This document shows positions 23,195-37,267 of a stretch of DNA of 64,000 nucleotides, one piece after another; the stretch's first letter is position 1, and the number at the start of each line of letters is the position of its first letter. A model generated the notes under the pieces. The model was not told where the DNA came from, did no database searches, and saw nothing but the letters and a program-made list of their open reading frames with translations. The stretch lies in NCBI GenBank assembly GCA_016932735.1, contig JAFGCI010000008.1, positions 1 to 64,000 of the forward strand, in the 5' to 3' direction. The DNA is from Candidatus Aenigmatarchaeota archaeon (lineage in GTDB: Archaea; Aenigmatarchaeota; Aenigmatarchaeia; QMZP01; QMZT01). A program made the position numbers and the translations under genes.

Positions 23195-23884
23195 ATGAGA
23201 TATTTAAGCAACATTTACGAAAAATACCATAAGGGGATTATTATAGGGGCGAAAATAGGGTTAATTTTAGGATTTCTGGCTATAATAATATTGGTCATTA
23301 CGAATGTTAATGGGGAAGAAAGGATAATAACATCATTTACTTGTAAATCATTAATATCCAATGGGAATGTCGATTTCTACAACCTTTCGCAATACCCTAA
23401 TTATAAAAATTATGAAGAAGCGGCCTTTGAATGTGATATTATCTTTGTAAAGAAAAATAATGAAACCTACAAGAATTGTTCTTTTCATTTTTCTGGTGGC
23501 GGTTATGATGAAGACGACCCAATCAATGAAACATTAATGGAATTATTTAATAATGGGGAAAATGCTTATGATGATTGGGGATTTGAATATGAATTTATCA
23601 AATATGCAAAAGGCAATTTTAACGGAATTTTCACTTTAATTTGTGATGGAGAGGAAATAGATAAGGTCGATATAAACCTAGAACTCATTGAACGACCAAA
23701 AGAAGATAAATCGGTTTTCTGGACAGCACAAATAGCTCTTATTCTGGCTATATTTGGTATAGCAACATCGGTTTACCAAGGTAAATTAATTGAAAAACTC
23801 GAAGAAAAAAAATTATTTTGGCTACCATTAGTAATTTTTATTATTATATTTCTGGTGTGGCTCTATTTTGTTCTTATTGCATAA
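23195..23884 (+). CDS. Membrane protein carried by the insertion sequence
   Basis: 229 residues behind a strong SD (GGAGGTGGGTTA-ATG). Helix 1 (about 15-38, IIIGAKIGLILGFLAIIILVI), an acidic Cys-containing outer domain of about 125 residues, then two helices (about 172-192 and 207-227). No family recognised. It lies wholly between the inverted repeats, so it is a passenger, or was captured. Its 3' end overlaps the convergent transposase gene by 11 bp. It may help maintain or protect the element, but nothing in the sequence shows how. Confidence 0.7.
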   Translation: MRYLSNIYEKYHKGIIIGAKIGLILGFLAIIILVITNVNGEERIITSFTCKSLISNGNVDFYNLSQYPNYKNYEEAAFECDIIFVKKNNETYKNCSFHFSGGGYDEDDPINETLMELFNNGENAYDDWGFEYEFIKYAKGNFNGIFTLICDGEEIDKVDINLELIERPKEDKSVFWTAQIALILAIFGIATSVYQGKLIEKLEEKKLFWLPLVIFIIIFLVWLYFVLIA

Positions 23885-24737
23885 TAGCTGACAATCTTAT
23901 CAAATCCAGCCATCTATTTTCGCCTAAATTCAGACTCTGACCAGCCAACTCGCAGGGAACCTTCGCAGTAGTGCTATGCTTCTCTATGTAATTGTGCTGT
24001 AAGATAATACCAGCCATTAAGATAGGAGCTGACCAAAGAGCCTTAAAACCTCTGAAATCATTAACCCTGTCTTTGACCTTCATAAAGACTGTTTCAATCC
24101 TTACATTGTGTTTTTTGGTCTTTGAGTAATTGACTACTGAATGAGCCACTTTGTCTTTAAGGAATCGGCTGTAAAAGACCTTCTTAAAAGCCTTCGGATA
24201 AAAGGGCAAAGCGTCAGTCTGAATGTAATAGGGCTTTTTGGTGGCTTTAATCCTTTTCATAAACTCGGTTGCATCGGCTAAATTCTGCGATTTATTCGAG
24301 TACAAGGTCGCATTGATGAACCTTGTATCCCAATCAACACAACACCAGAATATGTCTTTTCTGTTCTCACAATCCACTTCGGTCTCATCAGCATACATCT
24401 TACCGCTTAATTGTGGCTTGATTTTCTGCACGAATTTCTGGACTTTTAAGACGTATTTCCTGACCCAATCCAATATGGTTACATGGCTTACTTTGATGCC
24501 AAAATGCCTTCTTAACTGGTTCCTCATCTTTCGGCTTGAAAGATTGGACAGATACATATCAACGCACATTGTGATAATCTCTTCTTTATTGTGCATATGC
24601 CAGAATCCTAAATCAACTATGAAAGTATGACCGCAATTATTGCACTTCATTCTCTGCTGTTTGCCTCTTTTCTTAGTGTAATTGAACCCTCTTTTGACGG
24701 TTGCGGTTCCCTTACAGCACGGGCATTTTGCGTTCAT
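23874..24737 (-). CDS. DDE transposase, IS6/IS240-like
   Basis: 287 residues. An N-terminal zinc ribbon (CPCC at 5-8, CNNC at 32-35) is followed by a helix-turn-helix-like region (FGIKVSHVTILDWVRKYV) and a DDE catalytic core: Asp117 in MYADETEVD, Asp175 in YIQTDALPFYPKAF and Glu215 in NVRIETVFMKVKDRVNDFRGFK. It cuts and joins the element's ends. The frame is intact. It is divergent from the AbrB-like gene; the shared 103-bp promoter region carries repeated GATACC motifs. Confidence 0.9.
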   Translation of the reverse strand: MNAKCPCCKGTATVKRGFNYTKKRGKQQRMKCNNCGHTFIVDLGFWHMHNKEEIITMCVDMYLSNLSSRKMRNQLRRHFGIKVSHVTILDWVRKYVLKVQKFVQKIKPQLSGKMYADETEVDCENRKDIFWCCVDWDTRFINATLYSNKSQNLADATEFMKRIKATKKPYYIQTDALPFYPKAFKKVFYSRFLKDKVAHSVVNYSKTKKHNVRIETVFMKVKDRVNDFRGFKALWSAPILMAGIILQHNYIEKHSTTAKVPCELAGQSLNLGENRWLDLIRLSAIMQ

Positions 24738-26186: not shown

Positions 26187-26585
26187 TCAAATCTTCATGT
26201 TCTTAATAATCTCCCATCTCATTTCATGAATCTTGTTTATTTCACCAATCATATAATCAAGCCATTTATCTTTTTTGTAAGTCTGGACGAAAACGACAGG
26301 TATGCTGTTTGCAAAATAAACTTCTCTGCGAAAATTATAGCTTTCGTCTCTTTCAGCGCCACAAACCTCTATATATATCCCCAATCTCGGTATGTAAAAA
26401 TCCGGTGTCCAAACCCTTGGTCTTTCTTTATCGTCAACGACGAATACTGGCTGCTCATAATTCCACCACAAACCCATTTTCGTTAAGGTTTCCGCAACCA
26501 TTTTTTCGGGATTTGACATATCGTCATATATAGAACGCAACTTCTGAAGATATTCAGGCGGTTCAAAAAGATTTAACATTCCCAT
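26187..26585 (-). CDS. PD-(D/E)XK-like endonuclease (Vsr/DUF559-type)
   Basis: 132 residues from ATG 26585, after a perfect archaeal SD (GAGGTGATTTG). SNPEKMVAETLTKMGLWWNYEQPVF and WTPDFYIPRLGIYIEVCGAE ... NFRREVYFANSIPVVFVQT follow the Vsr/DUF559 fold: Asp in PDF, then Glu-x-Cys in place of the usual Glu-x-Lys. Active-site completeness is therefore uncertain. A single-domain nuclease of this size next to a lesion-bypass polymerase could act in repair, but no methyltransferase or repair partner is adjacent. Confidence 0.65.
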   Translation of the reverse strand: MGMLNLFEPPEYLQKLRSIYDDMSNPEKMVAETLTKMGLWWNYEQPVFVVDDKERPRVWTPDFYIPRLGIYIEVCGAERDESYNFRREVYFANSIPVVFVQTYKKDKWLDYMIGEINKIHEMRWEIIKNMKI

Positions 26586-26736
26586 CAAATCACCTCATAA
26601 ATCAATGAGTTATTATTGATAAAAGAATATGTAAATGTAAAACCGACGTTTAAACATTGTCCAAATCTGGGATTTTAGAAAATGAAACCTCTCATTAATA
26701 TTCCTTCCTCCCATATTTTTAGTATAGGGGGAGTGG

Positions 26737-27474
26737 ATGGGAATCTGGAATGAGCGATTCAGAGCTATCTTAGTTTTTACATTGCTTATCGTCATCGGAA
26801 TAGGTGTTGGAAGGTTTCTCGGACCGGTTCCTTTAACCGGAGCCGCTGTTTCTGACGGGTGCGAGCTTGTTGAAGTCCCCCGCGAAGTCTGCAGGGACGT
26901 GGTCGTTCCTTATGAATACATGGCCAACAAGGAGGAGCAGGTTCCCTACAGTGAAGAAGCATGCGAAGGCAGGGAATATGATTCAGGGGCGTATTATCTT
27001 TTCGGAGATTCGATGGGTGACGAATGGTCCAATGGAGGGACAGGATACCATATGACGGCTCTTTCAAAAGGAAGGATAATCGAATCCAGAATATATAATA
27101 ATGAAGACAAGGAAGGCGTTTTTTCCGTCGAGCTTCGCGTGTGGAGCGATAAAGGCTATAACAAGATTTATGAAACAAGACGGGATTTTGTTGTTGATGC
27201 TGATTCTTTTTTTGATTTCAAAATACGTACAGATGAAATGATTTCTGAAATGGGCGATAAGTTCAGAGAAGGTCTTTCATTCAGCGCCATTCTGATTAAG
27301 CCTGAACTTGAGGAATGCGAAAATGTTGTAAAATATTATTCTGTTAACAAGCCCAAGCCGGAGGTCGGATACCGCATAGAAGAGGTATGCGAAACCGAAT
27401 ATAAAACAGAAAAGGTGTGCGATAATTCTTATGATGTATGGTATGGGGCTGGGAAGACTTTCGACAACAGTTGA
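26737..27474 (+). CDS. Membrane-anchored secreted protein of unknown function
   Basis: 245 residues. One N-terminal helix at about 10-32 (AILVFTLLIVIGIGVGRFL), then an outer domain with Cys-containing motifs (CELVEVPREVCRDVVVPYEYMANKEEQVPYSEEAC) repeated at the C-terminus (EECENVV ... VCETEYKTEKVCD). The middle (about 90-185) resembles a beta-sandwich. No family recognised. Its last ten codons overlap the 3' exon of a tRNA-Pro gene on the other strand, which constrains both sequences. Confidence 0.65.
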   Translation: MGIWNERFRAILVFTLLIVIGIGVGRFLGPVPLTGAAVSDGCELVEVPREVCRDVVVPYEYMANKEEQVPYSEEACEGREYDSGAYYLFGDSMGDEWSNGGTGYHMTALSKGRIIESRIYNNEDKEGVFSVELRVWSDKGYNKIYETRRDFVVDADSFFDFKIRTDEMISEMGDKFREGLSFSAILIKPELEECENVVKYYSVNKPKPEVGYRIEEVCETEYKTEKVCDNSYDVWYGAGKTFDNS

Positions 27475-27558
27475 AAGCGCCTGCCTTCAGCAGTGTGTTT
27501 GAACTCCCGATCACACGCACCCCATGCGCGTATCCTAACCAAACTAGACCACAGCCCC
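27444..27558 (-). tRNA. tRNA-Pro (GGG) with a T-loop intron
   Basis: Reading the minus strand: acceptor GGGGCTG pairs with CAGCCCC (27445-27451); D arm GTCTAGTTTGGTTAGGAT; anticodon stem CGCGC/GCGTG with loop ATGGGGT, anticodon GGG; T stem GGGAG pairs with CTTCC. The T loop is interrupted after TTCAA: an insert of about 40 nt (27459-27498) separates exon 1 (27499-27558) from exon 2 (27444-27458). Intron position is about 58/59, ambiguous by one A. Mature length would be 75 nt with no encoded CCA. Without the intron the gene would look truncated. Confidence 0.85.
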
Positions 27559-37067: not shown

Positions 37068-37267
37068 GCCCCGGTAGTCTAGCCCGGTCAAGGATCCCGG
37101 ACTTTCGAGTACACTTGAAAGTACTGAATTCGCATTTTTGCGAGTGATGATATTTCCTTGTACGAAGCCATCCGGAGACACGGGTTCGAATGGAGTTTCA
37201 CAGGATTAATGTGAAAATGGGTTTTGCCGCGAAAGCGGCCATCTCCAAGGAAATCCCGTCCGGGGCA
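37068..37267 (+). tRNA. tRNA-Glu (TTC) with two introns
   Basis: Acceptor GCCCCGG pairs with CCGGGGC (37260-37266). Anticodon stem CCGGA/TCCGG with loop CTTTCG-A gives anticodon TTC. Intron 1 (about 37108-37169, 62 nt) follows position 37, the canonical site. The T stem CGGG/CCCG is split by intron 2 (about 37191-37253, 63 nt) within the T loop after TTCGAA; GGAG/CTCC can pair just inside it, as in a bulge-helix-bulge motif. Exons: 37068-37107, 37170-37190, 37254-37267. Junctions may shift by a base. No CCA is encoded. Confidence 0.87.

Follow-up and report, generated by a model that had tools for sequence, protein, structure and literature searches.

A tRNA-Pro(GGG) gene and its overlapping reading frame

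The window analyzed here is a stretch of 64,000 nucleotides (positions 1 to 64,000 of contig JAFGCI010000008.1) from a Candidatus Aenigmatarchaeota archaeon. Its minus strand carries a tRNA-Pro(GGG) gene whose T loop is interrupted by 40 nt, read below as an intron, and an open reading frame (ORF) runs into the 3' end of this gene from the opposite side. The features discussed are:

27444-27558, minus strand: tRNA-Pro(GGG) gene (G1 = 27558, anticodon 27523-27521, discriminator A73 = 27444)
27498-27558, minus strand: its 5' exon, positions 1-59, with the anticodon GGG at 27521-27523 (from the sequence and from ARAGORN on the spliced form)
27458-27497, minus strand: its predicted T-loop intron, 40 nt, at 59/60, with a relaxed bulge-helix-bulge (BHB) motif (from the fold and the register of sister introns)
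27444-27457, minus strand: its 3' exon, comprising T60, the T-stem strand CTTCC, the acceptor strand CAGCCCC and the discriminator A73 (from the sequence)
26737-27474, plus strand: ORF of 245 amino acids with an N-terminal hydrophobic segment, convergent to tRNA-Pro (from the sequence)
37068-37267, plus strand: tRNA-Glu(TTC) with a 37/38 intron and a T-loop intron, found by scanning and missed by both ARAGORN and Rfam

Read on the minus strand, the first half of the tRNA-Pro gene is GGGGCTG TG GTCT AGTTTGGTTA GGAT A CGCGC ATGGGGT GCGTG and the second half is TGATC GGGAG TTCAAA (40 nt) T CTTCC CAGCCCC A. The acceptor stem (7 pairs) and the T stem (5 pairs) are formed only when the 40 nt from 27497 to 27458 are left out, in agreement with the first-pass annotation, which had proposed a tRNA-Pro with a T-loop intron at 27444-27558 and the removal of about 40 nt for pairing of these two stems. 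What remains is an intact tRNA with all stems and the conserved T8, A14, G18G19, A21, T33, T54T55C56 and A58, and the insertion can be drawn as a BHB-type fold.

ARAGORN and Rfam cmscan called zero tRNAs in the unspliced window; on the computationally spliced 75-nt sequence, ARAGORN called tRNA-Pro(GGG). When the window was scanned for tRNAs with T-loop introns, two loci were detected, namely tRNA-Pro(GGG) and the tRNA-Glu(TTC) on the plus strand. The same scan of 30 Markov-resampled copies of the window gave a mean of 0.7 loose T-loop-intron tRNA hits and zero hits with an unsplit 5' half. A chance match as the source of the Pro-GGG call was rejected, since no comparable match occurred in the 30 resampled windows.

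The convergent ORF overlaps the tRNA gene by 31 nt, which take in all of the 3' exon and 17 nt of the intron; the stop codon of the ORF is found opposite the intron, on the antisense strand. If the same frame is followed across an intronless form of the gene, TGA is met four codons earlier (ATT TGA, by inspection), and the intron thus adds four residues to the ORF. No Pfam match was obtained for this ORF, 40 related genomes yielded one weak match, and no counterpart is present beside the Pro-GGG gene of G001, a genome of the same genus. Because of these three observations, the overlap is, on the sequences compared, a property of this genome. The 3' exon had been placed within the final codons of an opposite-strand membrane protein gene; the overlap itself stands, and the protein gene proves to be nearly an orphan.

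Between the DinB gene and tRNA-Pro, this genome has two ORFs, at 26187-26588 (minus strand) and 26737-27474 (plus strand), which are both absent at the syntenic place in G001. A transposase gene (Pfam DDE_Tnp_IS240; window 23874-24737, minus strand) is located a few kb from tRNA-Pro. A neighboring aminotransferase gene, scanned against named genomes, matched only distantly related bacterial sequences. A tmRNA call overlapping the tRNA-Pro of G001 was taken as a false positive.

Splice position and fold of the intron

By the archaeal criterion, a BHB has a central helix of 4 bp with a 3-nt bulge on either side, placed where exons and intron meet. A search for such a motif, as the first-pass annotation had suggested, pointed to a relaxed form of it. 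In the register of the sister introns, T54 T55 C56 (A57) lies opposite the intron sequence (C)GAA, directly before the 3' bulge, and the two 3-nt bulges are A58 A59^C and AG^T60. We consider this BHB relaxed because its central helix comprises three pairs (TTC/GAA) and an A57.C mismatch; most sister introns have a four-pair TTCR/YGAA helix.

In this register, A59 (27498) ends the 5' exon and T60 (27457) opens the 3' exon. The intron had originally been assigned to 58/59, and the run of A at 57-59 does leave the register partly ambiguous when the single gene is considered. Such a site is nevertheless very unlikely, as the register of the other T-loop introns puts the 3' cut before position 60, and splicing at 59/60 restores a 7-nt T loop (TTCAAAT) which ends in T60.

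Folding of the isolated T arm recovered the TTC/GAA helix and the 3' bulge, with a stability no better than that of shuffled sequences (z -0.45). Plain folds of the full precursor were uninformative: the free fold (-45.6 kcal/mol, compared with -40.1 kcal/mol when constrained to the cloverleaf) is not a cloverleaf.

Distribution and possible spread of T-loop introns

The first-pass annotation regarded non-anticodon tRNA introns as notable for a genome of this kind; the T-loop intron of Pro is not exceptional here. By pattern and structure searches, T-loop introns were identified in 24 or more of the genome's tRNA genes (the inventory was built from searches and is a lower bound, and tRNAs carrying additional introns were assigned an identity by eye), and about 50 more were collected from related genomes. 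The genes include Thr-CGT, Arg-GCG, Arg-TCT, Gly-GCC, Gly-CCC, Gly-TCC, Glu-CTC, Glu-TTC, His-GTG, Phe-GAA, Ala-TGC, Gln-TTG, Gln-CTG, Trp-CCA, Met-CAT, Val-TAC and several Leu genes; about ten tRNA genes without a T-loop intron were observed. In this genome, the introns have a common splice-site architecture of the TTCR/YGAA type.

The intron sets were partly chosen with a pattern that demands YGAA, and thus the invariance of GAA is not evidence for the helix. The pairing of exon base 57 with its intron partner is evidence, because the search pattern allowed all four combinations: among 74 introns, A-T was found in 48, G-C in 15, G-T in 8 and others in 2, and the sole A-C is that of Pro, which also has an imperfect inner helix. 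In 29 aligned introns of similar size, 94.2% of cells pair in the proposed structure, both sides change in 13 of 18 pairs, and covariation is 0.401, compared with 0.188 for shuffled and at most 0.137 for slid alignments. The fold of the T-loop intron family is supported by this covariation.

Several variants were also observed. L083 (minus strand, G000 contig C8) is a tRNA-Trp(CCA) that has a long intron at 37/38 and, in its T loop, another of just 20 nt, and in L062 (G034) the T-loop intron measures 16 nt. L091 (G000 C11:74638-74718), a tRNA whose anticodon is probably GTA, has a second TTCA...TGAA unit inside its T-loop intron, which is possibly a nested or tandem intron. In other genera, at least two further intron families occupy the same site, with cores like CCACCAGCGGG and GACGGCTTGG (loci L151, L154, L155 and L159 in G005 and G013; L116, L117 and L156-L158 in G019 and G034).

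Taken together, the locus very probably represents a functional single-copy tRNA-Pro(GGG) gene with a non-canonical archaeal BHB intron at 59/60. Pro-TGG and Pro-CGG have separate genes elsewhere in the genome, and the codons CCC and CCT account for 223 of 13,470 codons in the 40 long ORFs of the window. It had been pointed out that another intact Pro-GGG, with this copy diverged, would speak for a pseudogene, here a decaying tRNA-Pro with an unspliced 40-nt T-loop insertion. The splice-site helix of Pro is indeed weaker than that of the sister introns (A57.C), and another Pro-GGG could be outside the assembly, which is estimated to be 90.6% complete. Against this, searches of the assembled genome found no second Pro-GGG, every stem is intact, the insertion is related in sequence to introns that other tRNA genes carry at this position, and the same kind of decay would have to be assumed for some two dozen of the genome's tRNA genes. 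Decay of the gene is therefore highly improbable.

T-loop introns seem to spread from gene to gene, since some introns of different tRNAs have nearly the same sequence. Over 77 aligned positions, the His-GTG and Gly-CCC introns are identical at 71, in tRNA bodies that differ, and a Leu gene of the same genome contains a third related copy. The Pro intron is closest to the Gln-TTG intron of its own genome (31/40; 88% over 33 nt, E 1.8e-5). Transposed introns of the Thermoproteales type are recognized by a close likeness between the introns of different tRNA genes, which is represented here by His-GTG/Gly-CCC and by Pro/Gln-TTG. Part of this likeness could come from a common structural constraint and not from copying.

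In G001, an intronless Pro-GGG adjoins the same DinB-type polymerase gene as here. Because this syntenic gene of a same-genus genome is intronless, the Pro intron was probably acquired recently, in the line leading to the present genome, which is also the simplest reading. It is a member of a sequence family common to different tRNA genes and genomes of the lineage, and its gain probably came about when an intron was copied from one tRNA gene to another, as the sequence similarity suggests. As for the A57.C mismatch, G001 Pro has G57; the mismatch may have arisen when the exon base was substituted afterwards, or it may go back to a donor that had G57, as Gln-TTG does. The opposite course, an ancestral Pro intron lost in the intronless relatives, would fit the wide occurrence of T-loop introns across the class, which indicates that the trait is old in the lineage. 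We consider it unlikely, given that all three family members with an identified Pro-GGG (G001, G002 and G007) are intronless, that the closest relative of the intron is in Gln-TTG of the same genome, and that no T-loop intron is present in the Gln-TTG genes of G006, G007 and G008 either.

Splicing endonuclease and relation to known systems

The splicing endonuclease (EndA) of this genome is a single 394-amino-acid protein encoded on contig C8. It matches the epsilon2 EndA of ARMAN-2 (4fz2) over its full length (residues 10-387, E 5.7e-106), and equivalents of the catalytic residues Y236, H251 and K282 and of the ASL lysine K161 are kept in the alignment (residue list and numbering from PMC6379350). 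An epsilon2-type EndA is a three-unit protomer of about 390 amino acids that resembles the ARMAN-2 enzyme over the whole length; judged by homology, the protein is of this type, which has a broad specificity. On the basis of this enzyme, the organism would probably be an archaeon of Micrarchaeota type. Epsilon2 and (alpha beta)2 enzymes are able to remove introns with relaxed BHB motifs (reviewed in PMC6379350). Among 40 further genomes of its order, most gave long epsilon2-type matches; in 20 genomes from other orders of the class, EndA matches were short or missing. T-loop introns also occur in some genomes of this second group and hence do not strictly depend on the epsilon2 enzyme.

In the proposed mechanism, TTC(A) of the T loop would pair with (C)GAA of the intron beside the T stem of pre-tRNA-Pro, leaving the 3-nt bulges AA^C and AG^T. 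The epsilon2-type EndA would cut both bulges, and the exons would then be joined to form the mature loop TTCAAAT. Joining of tRNA exons in archaea is carried out by an RtcB-type ligase.

The same recognition of a BHB by EndA applies to the canonical archaeal intron at 37/38, which differs in lying at the anticodon stem and not in the T loop beside the T stem. Non-canonical BHB introns in tRNAs are known from Thermoproteales (Sugahara 2008; Fujishima 2010; as reviewed in PMC4090602 and PMC4033280). As those reviews present them, introns outside 37/38, several introns per gene and position 59/60 (PMC4090602) are all found there, and similar introns in different tRNAs are read as transposition (PMC4033280, PMC4090602). 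The present case differs in belonging to another archaeal lineage, in having an epsilon2 instead of an (alpha beta)2 endonuclease, and in placing many introns with a common TTCR/YGAA helix at the one site 59/60. Closer in enzyme type, by the full-length match, is ARMAN-2; for ARMAN-1 and ARMAN-2 (Micrarchaeum), multiple and non-canonical tRNA introns and the epsilon2 EndA have been reported (Fujishima 2011 and Hirata 2012, as cited in PMC4033280, PMC6379350 and PMC12397907; multiple introns and epsilon2 EndA in PMC4033280). Apart from those on ARMAN, we found no openly licensed paper that describes T-loop introns for this lineage.

Each of these elements, from non-canonical introns in archaea and the 59/60 position to the epsilon2 enzyme and transposition, is thus already known. 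What is worth following is that so many tRNA genes have their introns at a single T-loop site, together with the probable gain within a genus. ARAGORN and the Rfam tRNA model overlook many of this lineage's tRNA genes, and tRNA counts used for completeness may be too low, because Rfam reports 9 tRNAs above its cut-off in a genome with at least 24 T-loop-intron genes. More tentatively, and with slightly less than even confidence, we suggest that, in an order of small archaea that possess the epsilon2 enzyme, a lineage of introns marked by the TTCR/YGAA helix is still active and copies itself from one tRNA gene to the next, always into a single site, and that its gains can be seen within one genus. 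A presence/absence pair at a conserved neighbor within the genus, together with a likely source intron in the same genome, makes the intron gain testable.
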